Source: a virus. From it: a stretch of 25,483 nt of DNA. The notes beneath the pieces were generated by a model, which ran no database searches, was not told the origin of the DNA, and saw only the letters and a program-made list of their open reading frames with translations. The DNA lies in the IMG/VR virus record IMGVR_UViG_3300034156_000024, positions 1 through 25,483 of that record. One strand, written 5' to 3'. The translations under genes and the position numbers were made by a program. Every line of letters starts with the position of its first letter. Position 1 is the first letter of the stretch. Shown here in pieces: positions 2,643 through 9,373 of the stretch.

Positions 2643-2657
2643 AATAAGGCAATGACA

Positions 2658-5279
2658 ATGCTTGCAACAGCTTTGGCGGGAATGACCGCCATCAATCAAT
2701 GGTTCGTGTGGCGCCTGAGCCCCGATCCTAAAAAGCCGGGGAAGTACCTAAAGGTGCCTGCGCATCCTGACGGTCGAATTGAGTTTGATGAGAACGGGAA
2801 GCTGAAAGGGCCTGACGCCCAAAAGCCGTACGCGTGGTCATCGTTTGAGGTAGCCACGGCTCAGCTACAGCAGCACATGGGGAGGCTTGACGGGTATGTC
2901 TACACGCTCGGTTTTATGGTTACTCGTGATTGCGGTTACTGGTTCCTCGATATCGATTCTTGTGTTGACGGTGCTGGTGCTCTCACACCATGGGCAGCCT
3001 GGTTCTATCAGAACTTGCCCGGTGCATTCTTCGAATACAGCTCAAGCGGGAAGGGCGTCCACTTTCTAGGTCGCGGTTGCCCGCCCGCTGGTCACCGCAC
3101 ACGACCAACTCAGGCTTGGGAAGCTGAGCACCCTGGCAATGACCTTGAGTTCTACACGGGTGGGCGGGGCATTGCGTTCGGCTTGAGTGGGCAGGCTTGG
3201 GGCTCGGCTGATACGCACCTGGGCTCACAAACCCAATACATCGTTGACCAGATTTTCACCCCTGCTGAGTCGACCGGTGTGGCCTTGCTGGGTGATGGAC
3301 CTCGGGCGGATTGGCGCGGCCCTGAGGATGATGACGAATTGATACGCCGCGCCATGCAGTCGCGCAGCGCCGGGGCGATGTTCTCAGGCAAAGCGACCTT
3401 TGCGGACTTGTGGACGTGCAACGTTCAAGCCCTGGCGGCGAGCTACCCGGATGAGGGGCGCAGCGACGGCAAGCCATACGGCGGCACTGAGGTTGACTTT
3501 GCGCTGGCCTCACACCTGGCGTTCTGGACGGGCTGCGATGCTGAGCGGATGGTGCGCCTGATGTGGCGCTCGGGCCTGGTGCGTGACAAGTGGACTGAGC
3601 ACCGCACCTACCTGGCTGAGCTGACCGTTGACCGTGCCTGCAAGCAAACGCGCAACGTGTGCCAGGATAAGGAGACGACACCCAAGCTGGATGCCTCAGT
3701 GACCCTGAGCGCGGGAGTGAGCCGGCAGGAATATTACGACCTCATTATGAGCTGCAACGATGACGCGGACCTGCGCAATGAGGTGGTACCGCAGATTGCC
3801 GCTGACCGCTCGATTGCAATGCTTGACCGGGATTGGCTGGCAGCCGCCATCAAGAAGCGCATGAGCGATTGGGGGTTCCCGGTCAGCATCAGTGACTGCA
3901 AGGCCATGGTGCGCCTGCAGGTGGTCGAGGACGAAGACGGCGGGGTTATCCCTGAGTGGGCCAACCGGCACGTGTATGTCATGGCAACGGATTGCTTCTT
4001 TGACCTGATCACCGCAAGCACGATGAGCCGCACCGCGTTCAACGCGCAATACGAGCGCATGATGCCGCAGAAGCCGAACGGCGACCGTGAGGACGCGGCC
4101 AAGTGGTGCTTGCAGCGTTGGAACACCGCCACCGTGGGCGACACGATGTATCTGCCAGGCAAGGAGCCCATCTTTAATCATGAGGGCCGTTGGTACGCCA
4201 ACCTGTACAGCCCAAGCACGGTGCCGGAAATAGCCTTGGGTTACACGCAGGGCGGTGTTGATGCCATCCAAGCGTTCTTGCGCCACCTGCAGGCGCTGTG
4301 CGGCAACCGGTCTGAGGTGTATTTGAACCTGTTGGACTGGATGGCCTGGTGTGCGCAGAACCCTGGCAAGAAGTGCCGGTATGCACCAATCATCAAAGGC
4401 ATGCCCGGTGACGGCAAGTCGCTCATCATTAACGTCATGCAAGCGGTGATGGGATTTGCCAACGCAACCTCAGTGGGTGCCAAGCTGGTCTGCTCAGATT
4501 TCGGCGACTGGCAGGAAGGGAGCTGCGTTACTGCGTTTGAGGAACTGATGATCACCGGGGCCAAGCGCTATGCCGTGGCCAACGCGATCAAAGAGCCCAT
4601 CACCAACAACACGCTCAAGATTAACCGCAAGGGTCGACCCGCTGGTGCGTCAATTATTAACGTCACTAACTACATCGCCTTTACCAACTTCGTAGACGCG
4701 GTGCCACTTGAGGACAATGACCGGCGGTGGTGGGTGATCTTTTCCCCGTTCAACTCGTTGAGTGGATTGGCAGCAGCGCTGAGCCTGACGACCGAGGGTT
4801 TGACCGCGCACTACGACATGATCTTTGACAGCCTCACGGATAGCCGGCGCGGTGAGTGGCGCAAGTTCTTGGTTGAGTACGCTGTGAGCGAGAATTTCAA
4901 GCCGAACTCAAAAGCCCCTGACACTGATGAGAAGCATGAAATGCAAGCGGGCGGGGAAGACGCCCACGAGGCCGTGGCGCGTCAATGTATTGAAACCGGG
5001 GCCGTTGGTGTCGGTCAGTTCGTTTTAAGCTCTAGCAGCCTAACAGCGGCTATGAGGACTATATGCGTACAGGACGGGTTGGACATTCCTAAAACCACTG
5101 CGGTTAACCACGTGCTTACCCGGATGGGGTTCTCACCTGTACGTCAGCTCAAGTGGGATGGTAAGCCGCACCGTGTTTGGTGGAAGCGCGGCACCGTGGC
5201 CAACAACGACAACGAGACGCTGCGTTCGATGTTGGAGTTGACGAAAATTCAGCACCTTGCAGGATTGGTTAATAATTGA
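2658..5279 (+). CDS. Primase-helicase fusion (AEP-type primase plus SF3/D5-like helicase)
   Basis: About 873 residues; numbering below counts from the alternative ATG at 2652. The N-terminal third looks like an archaeo-eukaryotic (Prim-Pol) primase: the metal-binding pair FLDID at 98-102, SSSGKGVHF at 130-138 and EFYTGGRGIAFG at 166-177. The C-terminal half is an SF3/D5-like helicase: Walker A GMPGDGKS at 583-590, a Walker B-like TAFEELM around 627-633, and a motif C segment YIAFTN at 674-679. Such fusions prime and unwind DNA at phage and plasmid origins, which fits the repeat-rich region right after its stop. AAGG at 2646-2649 favours ATG 2658 as the start. Family DUF5906-like is my best reading. 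Confidence 0.9.
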   Translation: MLATALAGMTAINQWFVWRLSPDPKKPGKYLKVPAHPDGRIEFDENGKLKGPDAQKPYAWSSFEVATAQLQQHMGRLDGYVYTLGFMVTRDCGYWFLDIDSCVDGAGALTPWAAWFYQNLPGAFFEYSSSGKGVHFLGRGCPPAGHRTRPTQAWEAEHPGNDLEFYTGGRGIAFGLSGQAWGSADTHLGSQTQYIVDQIFTPAESTGVALLGDGPRADWRGPEDDDELIRRAMQSRSAGAMFSGKATFADLWTCNVQALAASYPDEGRSDGKPYGGTEVDFALASHLAFWTGCDAERMVRLMWRSGLVRDKWTEHRTYLAELTVDRACKQTRNVCQDKETTPKLDASVTLSAGVSRQEYYDLIMSCNDDADLRNEVVPQIAADRSIAMLDRDWLAAAIKKRMSDWGFPVSISDCKAMVRLQVVEDEDGGVIPEWANRHVYVMATDCFFDLITASTMSRTAFNAQYERMMPQKPNGDREDAAKWCLQRWNTATVGDTMYLPGKEPIFNHEGRWYANLYSPSTVPEIALGYTQGGVDAIQAFLRHLQALCGNRSEVYLNLLDWMAWCAQNPGKKCRYAPIIKGMPGDGKSLIINVMQAVMGFANATSVGAKLVCSDFGDWQEGSCVTAFEELMITGAKRYAVANAIKEPITNNTLKINRKGRPAGASIINVTNYIAFTNFVDAVPLEDNDRRWWVIFSPFNSLSGLAAALSLTTEGLTAHYDMIFDSLTDSRRGEWRKFLVEYAVSENFKPNSKAPDTDEKHEMQAGGEDAHEAVARQCIETGAVGVGQFVLSSSSLTAAMRTICVQDGLDIPKTTAVNHVLTRMGFSPVRQLKWDGKPHRVWWKRGTVANNDNETLRSMLELTKIQHLAGLVNN

Positions 5280-5330
5280 TCAGGTCCCAAGGGTAACAAG
5301 TAGGTCCCAGGTCAAAACAACTTGGGACCC

Positions 5331-5354
5331 GCTGAGAGCCCCGGTTTATAAGGG
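5331..5354 (+). repeat. 24-bp direct repeat, copy 1
   Basis: This 24-base sequence (starting GCTGAGAGCC, ending GTTTATAAGGG) recurs exactly at 5510-5533, 179 bases downstream. Both copies directly follow or lie close to a CTTGGGACC-type site and flank the AT-rich core. Confidence 0.9.
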
Positions 5355-5509
5355 TTTCTTCTCTTTTAGGTCCCAAGGTCCCAAGTAGAAGTAAAAGTAG
5401 CTACACACAAGAGACACAAGATTTATATAGGTGGTCATCATTTGTCGTAGCATGTATGTCATTACGTAATGCATTTAGATATTTTCAACTTGGGACTCGG
5501 GACCTTTTG

Positions 5510-5533
5510 GCTGAGAGCCCCGGTTTATAAGGG
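5510..5533 (+). repeat. 24-bp direct repeat, copy 2
   Basis: Exact second copy of the sequence at 5331-5354. The 9-mer GGTAACAAG, also found at 5292-5300, follows at 5541-5549, so the two edges of the region share several elements. Confidence 0.9.
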
Positions 5534-5595
5534 CTGTAGAGGTAACAAGCTTGGGACCTCCCCTTGGGACCTTTTCTAAATTTGGAGCTGAGAAC

Positions 5596-7575: not shown

Positions 7576-7778
7576 GTCCAACATTCAGCTTGATTTATGG
7601 GACATCGCTGTACGACACGTTTTCATTAGACGTGAGGGTTTGCGACCGGGTAATTTTCGAAACTGATTCAGGTCACGCGAATATGCTTCGCGCTGAAATC
7701 AAAAGTCGCGAAGACGTTGAGCAAATTCGTGACATGCTCAGCGCCTGGCTGGTCGCAACAGAACCTAAGGGCAACTAA
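7572..7778 (+). CDS. Small hypothetical protein, GTG start
   Basis: A 68-residue protein. GTG 7572 overlaps the previous stop, and a strong GAGGAGG (7558-7564) sits seven bases upstream, which decides the start. Two beta-like segments (FSLDVRVCDRVIFETD) precede a helix (SREDVEQIRDMLSAWLVA). Its stop overlaps the large terminase ATG by one base (TAATG), so the two are probably translationally coupled. No family recognised. Confidence 0.65.
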   Translation: MSPTFSLIYGTSLYDTFSLDVRVCDRVIFETDSGHANMLRAEIKSREDVEQIRDMLSAWLVATEPKGN

Positions 7779-9373
7779 TGGCCTTTGACTACCGCAACCC
7801 AAACTATCGCGATGTGCTGCAAGAGCGCCTTGAGAACCTGTCGAACATTCGAAAGAACCCGCAGATCATCCCGGCGCTAAAGATGCACTATCGCGAGAAC
7901 CCAATTGACTTTATCAGCGATTGGGGCACCACCTACGACCCCCGGCTTATTGAGCGGGGTTTGTCGCCTATCGTTCCCATGATCCTGTTTCCCAAGCAGA
8001 CCGACTTTATTGAGTGGGTGCTTGAGCGTTGGGCGGCGGGTGAGTCTGGTGTTGCGCCAAAGTCTCGGGACATGGGGCTGTCGGTGGTCTGCCAGCAACT
8101 GGCTGCAACGCTGTGCCTATTCCGCAAGAACATGAACATTGGGTTTGGCTCACGCAAAGAGGACTTGGTAGACAAGGTGGGTGACCCTGACACCCTGTTC
8201 TATAAAGGGCGGATGTTCCTCAACCACTTACCCGAGGAATTCAGGGGCGGCTTCAACGAATCGAACAAGGATCACAGCAGCCACCTCAAGCTGTTCATCC
8301 CCGAAACCCAAAGCATCATCAAGGGTGAGGCCGGCGACAACATTGGGCGTGGTGGGCGTACCGCGCTGTACTTCGACGATGAGTCAGCCTTTCAACCTCG
8401 CCCGCTGCTGATCGACGCGTCACTTTCCAACACGACCAACTGTCGAATATCGGTCAGCTCGGCCAACGGCACCGATAACCCGTTCTATGACAAGGTGCAA
8501 AACTGGCCTGAGCACCGGGTGTTCTGGTTCCACTGGCGAGCCGACCCGCGCAAGGATGACGCGTGGTACAAGAAGAAATGCGAGGACATCGACAACCCGT
8601 TGATCGTTGCTCAGGAAATTGACCTTAATTTCAGCGCTTCCAAATCTGGCATCCTCATACCTAGCGATTGGGTGCAGGCTGCAGTCAACGCGCACGTCAA
8701 GCTTGGGATCAAACCAACTGGTGAGAGTCGCGGTGCACTTGACGTTGCTGACGAAGGTATCGACCTGAACGCGTTCGGCAAGCGGCATGGCGTGGTCATG
8801 GAATTCTTGAAAGCCTGGTCGGGCAAAGGTTCTGACACGTTTGCCACGACAGCGCTGGCTTTTAATCTTGCCGACGAAAACGCTATTGATGAGTGGGACT
8901 TTGACAGTGACGGCCTGGGTGTGAGCGTTCGCGGTGACGCCAGGGTTCTCAACGAGGCACGCGGTAAGCACAAGCAGAAGGTGTTGCCATTCCGTGGCTC
9001 TGGCGAGGTGATCGACAAGGACAAAGAAATCATCCGGGGTGAGGGTGGCCGCAAGGGGCGTACCAATGAGGACTTCTTTGCGAACCGCAAGGCGCAAGAG
9101 TGGTGGCGTCTGATGACCCGCTTCAAGATGACCTATCGCGCTGTGGTTGAGGGGCTGCCGTACGACCCTGACGAAATCATAAGCCTTGACGACACCAAGA
9201 TTGAGCGCAAGGCATTTACTAAATTGTGCCAGGAACTCAGCCAACCAACATGGACGCAGAACGGTAGTGGTAAGATCCTGATTGATAAGGCGCCATCGGG
9301 CGCACGCTCGCCAAACTATGCTGACTGCTGCATGATTCTGTATTCCAAGCGCGCACGCCGCTCAGGCTTCTAA
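7778..9373 (+). CDS. terL: Terminase large subunit (ATPase-nuclease)
   Basis: A 531-residue packaging motor. The ATPase domain shows a variant Walker A, APKSRDMGLS (93-102), a Walker B LYFDDE (197-202) and a coupling motif SVSSANGTDNPFY (225-237). The nuclease domain starts near 290, with the first acidic residue probably D322 (GALDVADEG). Length is normal for the family. It cuts concatemeric DNA and pumps it through the portal using ATP, with the small subunit encoded at 5596 for recognition. The KSRxxG form of Walker A is common in large terminases. Confidence 0.93.
   Translation: MAFDYRNPNYRDVLQERLENLSNIRKNPQIIPALKMHYRENPIDFISDWGTTYDPRLIERGLSPIVPMILFPKQTDFIEWVLERWAAGESGVAPKSRDMGLSVVCQQLAATLCLFRKNMNIGFGSRKEDLVDKVGDPDTLFYKGRMFLNHLPEEFRGGFNESNKDHSSHLKLFIPETQSIIKGEAGDNIGRGGRTALYFDDESAFQPRPLLIDASLSNTTNCRISVSSANGTDNPFYDKVQNWPEHRVFWFHWRADPRKDDAWYKKKCEDIDNPLIVAQEIDLNFSASKSGILIPSDWVQAAVNAHVKLGIKPTGESRGALDVADEGIDLNAFGKRHGVVMEFLKAWSGKGSDTFATTALAFNLADENAIDEWDFDSDGLGVSVRGDARVLNEARGKHKQKVLPFRGSGEVIDKDKEIIRGEGGRKGRTNEDFFANRKAQEWWRLMTRFKMTYRAVVEGLPYDPDEIISLDDTKIERKAFTKLCQELSQPTWTQNGSGKILIDKAPSGARSPNYADCCMILYSKRARRSGF

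Follow-up and report, generated by a model that had tools for sequence, protein, structure and literature searches.

The virus record IMGVR_UViG_3300034156_000024 of IMG/VR (positions 1 to 25,483; this whole stretch of 25,483 nucleotides is hereafter called the window) carries an array of short repeats between a primase-helicase gene and a small terminase (TerS) gene. The locus raises the question of what the array does and which of the two neighboring proteins reads it. An initial annotation, made from the sequence alone, described nine copies of a 9-mer around an AT-rich core and proposed an origin, a packaging site, or both. Our analysis indicates that the array is very probably an iteron replication origin of the phage, recognized by the wing of the upstream NrS-1-like primase-helicase.

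The nine GGTCCCAAG-type sites are real, comprising six exact and three one-mismatch copies over positions 5283–5571 (Table 1). All of the exact copies in the window lie inside the array, with none elsewhere, and 15 matches with one mismatch or fewer were found window-wide, compared with a mean of 5.8 and a maximum of 11 in shuffled sequences. The left sites s1, s3, s4, s5, and s6 have the strands + + − + +, and the right sites s7, s8, s10, and s11 are all on the − strand. The inward-pointing layout described initially was thus observed, with a single inverted left copy (5321) as the exception. The core has a GC content of 32%, whereas the array as a whole reaches 46% and the window 56%; this agrees with the AT-rich core of the initial annotation. 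Two further sites, GGTAACAAG (s2 and s9), and a 24-bp perfect direct repeat had gone unnoticed. The array is counted here as 11 sites because relatives place their common repeat where the GGTAACAAG sites sit. The flanking genes were confirmed as a primase-helicase upstream and a small terminase downstream by family matches.

All ten close relatives (10/10; IMG/VR contigs with primases 70–94% identical) have an array at the matching place, directly after the primase stop codon. Across these relatives the repeat changes as a set: it is GGTCCCAAG (the window, L003, and L012), GGTTACA(A/G)G (GGTTACAAG in L005, L007, L008, and L011; GGTTACAGG in L009), GGTAACAGG (L004 and L010), or GGTCACAAG (L006). 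The 9-mer, which had not been recognized in the initial annotation, is therefore one allele of a drifting repeat that is found family-wide. Within the array of L006 (L035), the inner sites s6 and s8 are both GTCTC and the remaining sites are GTCAC, a paired departure within one array. Four related contigs have exact end overlaps of 123–127 bp, and their break points differ and lie away from the array. Because of these overlaps and differing break points, they were read as circular assemblies of 43–45 kb; therefore, genome termini cannot be read from the contig ends. In these four circular genomes, the 300-bp segments of highest AT content fall at the array, and 7/7, 7/7, 7/8, and 7/9 copies of the lineage repeat are located inside it.

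A wider search for relatives yielded 80 viral and 5 genome loci. The repeat score was at least 2 points above that of the region's own shuffles in about 60 of 73 distinct downstream regions, a count taken from printed scores with only six shuffles per region. Arrays directly after the primase gene are also present in Psp6 (44% identity), Silvanus (35%), PCA1 (34%), and dozens of viral contigs. They share a plan in which two or three left copies right after the stop codon are followed by two + copies 7–8 nt apart, a core of approximately 100 bp, and then two or three − copies 7 nt apart. The motifs among these loci include GGTTCGAGG, GGATCGAGG, GGTTAGAGG, GGTAAGG, GGCTACAAG, and CCATACAAG. The gene after the array varies and can encode a terminase, HNH protein, glycoside hydrolase 19 (endolysin), VRR-NUC protein, minor tail protein, or protein of unknown function. 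The array belongs to the primase and not to the terminase, because it follows the primase-helicase gene whatever gene comes next. A DNA search in cultured phages gave no matches.

Other elements of the locus also recur. The 24-bp element GCTGAGAGCCCCGGTTTATAAGGG, with one copy per side between the outer and inner iterons, is kept in relatives, and AAGTTGTTGAT or a close variant occupies the equivalent left place in PCA1, Silvanus, L087, and L100. The best-conserved core stretch among the close clade is TATAGGTGGTCATCAT. The primase of Psp6 (L013; 3465–6007) is annotated as two overlapping open reading frames, probably as a result of a frameshift in the sequence or its annotation.

The covariation of the repeat with the flanking proteins points to the primase as its reader. 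In the close clade, 13 of 274 variable primase columns match the repeat class, all within residues 712–850, and none of the 119 variable TerS columns does. TerS had been considered first as the protein that recognizes the 9-mer and was rejected on this count. The window and L004 have almost the same TerS N-terminus but different repeats. L004 and L010 have the same repeat and array, primase C-terminus, and wing, and their TerS N-termini differ, which suggests recombination between the array and the terminase gene in this comparison of sequences. The mutual information with repeat positions 3–6 was then scanned over 55 diverse loci. Residues 830–841 ranked first among all 12-residue segments in the C-terminal 345 columns, approximately 4 standard deviations above the mean, and did so at all three redundancy thresholds. 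Association tests were run after collapsing the loci to 15 clusters. G at position 6 is associated with T or Q at residue 841 (p = 0.006), a base other than G at position 2 with a residue other than K at 834 (p = 0.0015), a base other than T at position 3 with M at 839 (p = 0.004), and A at position 4 with P at 839 (p = 0.002). A rule that tied C at position 4 to residue 839 failed (p = 0.62). Freshly fetched loci provided an out-of-sample test, in which predictions and motifs were scripted and the register of motif to 9-mer was aligned by eye. For position 2, the prediction was correct in nearly all new loci whose array is clear. All six clear new lineages for which position 4 was predicted (L175, L184, L203, L212, L258, and L267) agreed with the prediction. 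Position 6 was correct in most cases, among them the new motif GGTTTGA in L203, which was predicted from T841.

Several observations weigh against recognition of the array as an origin by the primase. No array was found after the primases of L050, L106, SppYZU01, and Edwardsiella phages. GC skew, proposed as a check in the initial annotation, does not switch at the array and was uninformative for an origin, with a cumulative curve that climbs along the genome. Part of the covariation is linkage: over residues 800–850, 3 of 20 synonymous-variable codons follow the repeat class, compared with 6 of 19 amino acid columns. The cluster-level rules were derived from the very data that tested them, and part of the motif register was assigned manually. 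On the new loci, the position 3 rule broke down for N, R, or K at residue 839, and the base predicted from T841 for position 6 was wrong in L275. A parsimony test of co-change on a FastTree phylogeny was noisy and indecisive, as many columns change on the same branches.

The primase C-terminus was modeled with AlphaFold as a winged helix with a helix-helix-hairpin layout (predicted local distance difference test score, pLDDT, of 87). Given a two-residue turn, the residue pairs 834:839 and 832:841 would be cross-strand pairs on one face of the wing hairpin in the predicted register. The closest solved folds, with moderate scores, are the winged helices of Orc1/Cdc6 initiators on origin DNA. A sequence search of the PDB with the C-terminal profile gave nothing significant. 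Because the origin-binding domain (OBD) of P4 and RFX1 were absent among the fold matches listed, and RFX5 was present at a weak score, no kinship within the winged helices is claimed. By analogy, the proposed role of the wing recalls the prominent base reading by the wing that is described for RFX1 in literature cited in PMC10516667.

These observations can be combined into a working mechanism. The locus has iterons directly downstream of the putative initiator gene, two iteron sets around an AT-rich region, and a winged-helix C-terminus in the encoded protein. From this place, composition, and architecture, together with the analogy to known systems, we infer origin activity, and the covariation suggests that the primase itself recognizes the iterons. 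The primase-helicase would bind the GGTCCCAAG iterons via the wing β-hairpin of its C-terminal winged helix, and residues 832, 834, 839, and 841 on one predicted face of the hairpin would read base pairs 2 to 6. The inverted iteron clusters on both sides may load helicase rings facing each other, after which the AT-rich core would melt. The primase-polymerase domain would then start synthesis in the core, possibly at the conserved GTGG. This motif is a possible primer site because NrS-1 PrimPol prefers GTG(G) and TTTGGTTA as start sites (PMC8718748). Iterons and wing would change in concert and give each lineage a private initiator-origin pair. Both alleles may be tolerated by proline 839, the residue that accompanies A at position 4 elsewhere. 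Because of this possible tolerance, and because s2 and s9 stay GGTAAC in all three CC genomes (3/3), the CC arrays may represent an unfinished switch from AA.

The place of the array also fits a packaging site, cos or pac, whose 9-mers are bound by the small terminase encoded downstream. The array adjoins TerS in the close clade, where such sites often lie, and cosB and pac typically contain arrays of short repeats. However, the array stays with the primase where TerS sits elsewhere (approximately 1.3 kb further on in Psp6), and genes other than TerS follow it in other relatives. TerS columns do not follow the repeat class, the TerS N-termini disagree with the repeats in both comparisons given above, and the circular assemblies break away from the array. 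A packaging role is thus made unlikely, and a cos or pac site read by TerS is a very improbable explanation. This half of the initial proposal is not supported, whereas the iteron-origin half is well supported by the position after the primase in distant phages, the most AT-rich 300 bp, and the covariation with the winged helix. The array might instead serve transcriptional control, with the primase or another regulator binding the repeats to switch the operon off or late genes on. In the close clade, it separates the replication module from the structural module, and iterons often double as autoregulation sites. Its location downstream, not upstream, of the primase and the variable gene after it argue against this function, and its fixed position and AT-richness suit an origin better. 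We regard transcriptional control as extremely unlikely as the main function, while a secondary regulatory role may exist.

A further explanation concerns shape rather than sequence. The inner copies are inverted around the core and could form a cruciform or hairpin, a stem-loop recognized by its shape, as proposed for the plasmid pRN1, which has an essential 100-bp stem-loop at the matching place relative to a related gene (PMC4234260). However, the outer unpaired copies, which are not needed for a stem, change likewise, and the repeat sequence tracks a wing that is predicted to read DNA. In one relative, L006, the inner pairs are mismatched in the hairpin register (s5 CA with s8 CT, and s6 CT with s7 CA). 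The arms of the pRN1 stem are themselves tandem TGTCCA repeats, which are equally readable as iterons. Recognition of a hairpin is therefore highly unlikely, and an iteron origin read by the primase wing remains the favored interpretation.

The source of the window is, judged from its gene content, a contractile-tailed phage, and its genome is put at roughly 43–45 kb. The primase-helicase matches the NrS-1 polymerase HBD domain PF22763 with 65.7 bits (curated cut-off, 27.9), and TerS matches Terminase_2 (PF03592). Genes of the large terminase, portal, protease, major capsid, tail sheath, and tape measure proteins lie beyond TerS. The large terminase (7778–9373) is divergent, with no Pfam match and only a weak PHROG match. 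A gene of a SLOG-family (YpsA-like) protein (2043–2642) is located directly upstream of the primase.

Table 1. Features of the proposed origin and of the primase-helicase encoded upstream (nucleotide positions in the window, unless residues are given).
Feature	Position	Strand	Remarks
Primase-helicase, 875 aa, proposed initiator	2652..5279	+	PF22763, DUF5906, PHROG DNA primase
C-terminal winged helix	about residues 790-848		AlphaFold
Wing hairpin	residues 827-845		AlphaFold; strands 827-835 and 838-845
Putative specificity residues of wing	residues 831, 832, 834, 839, 840, 841
Codons of wing residues 831-841	5142..5174	+	RQLKWDGKPHR
Iteron s1	5283..5291	+	GGTCCCAAG
Iteron s2	5292..5300	+	GGTAACAAG; other allele, probably a relic or still accepted
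Iteron s3	5303..5311	+	GGTCCCAGG
Iteron s4	5321..5329	-	GGTCCCAAG
24-bp element, copy 1	5331..5354	+	GCTGAGAGCCCCGGTTTATAAGGG; between outer and inner iterons
Inner iteron s5	5369..5377	+	GGTCCCAAG
Inner iteron s6	5377..5385	+	GGTCCCAAG; tandem step 8 nt from s5
AT-rich core	5386..5488	no strand	32% GC; proposed unwinding region
Conserved core motif	5426..5441	+	TATAGGTGGTCATCAT; contains GTGG, possible primer site
Inner iteron s7	5489..5497	-	AGTCCCAAG
Inner iteron s8	5496..5504	-	GGTCCCGAG; tandem step 7 nt
24-bp element, copy 2	5510..5533	+	GCTGAGAGCCCCGGTTTATAAGGG
Iteron s9	5541..5549	+	GGTAACAAG; other allele
Iteron s10	5550..5558	-	GGTCCCAAG
Iteron s11	5563..5571	-	GGTCCCAAG

A broader reading, whose chances we consider evenly balanced, is that many replicons with an archaeo-eukaryotic primase (AEP)-helicase, including this phage family and probably pRN1, share one general design, in which inverted tandem iterons surround an AT-rich core situated immediately 3′ of the gene and the winged-helix hairpin reads the iterons by a compact, decodable code. 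In the code proposed here, residue 834 would specify base 2, residue 839 bases 3–4, residue 832 base 4, and residues 840/841 bases 5–6. Specificity would shift by concerted site replacement, and the window, with nine CC and two AA sites, would be in the middle of such a switch. If this is true, the protein would allow prediction of both the origin sequence and the compatibility group of an uncultivated phage. Changes of specificity in phage initiator-origin pairs can seldom be observed. The present loci include dozens of natural variants in which the repeat and its putative reader shift jointly within an unchanged architecture, with an apparent intermediate state. A protein-DNA recognition code thus becomes testable, with rules that are partly readable from genomes alone, and the layout provides a means of finding the origins of uncultivated phages. 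The origin layout itself is known. What is new is its presence in whole tailed phages, the concerted drift, and the apparently readable code between wing and iterons.

The same layout is known from the rep-ori region of phage-inducible chromosomal islands and Staphylococcus aureus pathogenicity islands (PICI/SaPI), which combine an AEP primase with a helicase and have iterons bound by the C-terminal domain of Rep (PMC6092414, PMC7581432). In contrast to these satellites, the phages studied here encode a terminase, portal, capsid, and tail of their own, and the close-clade array is larger. The window was ruled out as a PICI/SaPI satellite by its terminase, portal, protease, capsid, tail sheath, and tape measure genes. 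The present arrays would extend the PICI-type origin from satellites to complete tailed phages.

Phage P4 served as a control: its crr (4291–4590) carries the repeats GGTGAACA directly 3′ of alpha (stop, 4636), and the crr repeat resembles GGTNNCAAG. The C-terminal winged helix of P4 alpha reportedly binds the crr repeats. However, P4 is a satellite with a second, separate ori, and its alpha protein has a Toprim and not an AEP primase (PMC4234260). NrS-1 primase-polymerase has the HBD domain PF22763 in common with the window primase, and start sites of its type occur in the window as GTGG in the conserved core and ATTGGTTA at 5264–5271. The NrS-1 literature consulted for this comparison describes no iteron origin. 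Geminivirus iterons also combine a conserved arrangement with a lineage-specific repeat and matching initiator residues (PMC12548392). This likeness is an analogy only, because geminiviruses have an ssDNA genome and an unrelated rolling-circle Rep with an iteron-related domain.

The ORF904 protein of pRN1 resembles the window primase in having an AEP primase, a superfamily 3 (SF3) helicase, and a winged helix, and is a relative by domain order; its gene is directly followed on the 3′ side by an essential origin of approximately 100 bp, which was described as a stem-loop without iterons (PMC4234260). In pRN1 (L139), the stem arms consist of tandem TGTCCA at +57 and +66 and the inverted sequence at +136 and +145 around an A/T core. 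Although pRN1 is an archaeal plasmid with a different repeat sequence, its stem-loop (+57 to +150 after orf904) shares the inner layout with the array of the window, and a re-reading of this element as inverted iterons is suggested.
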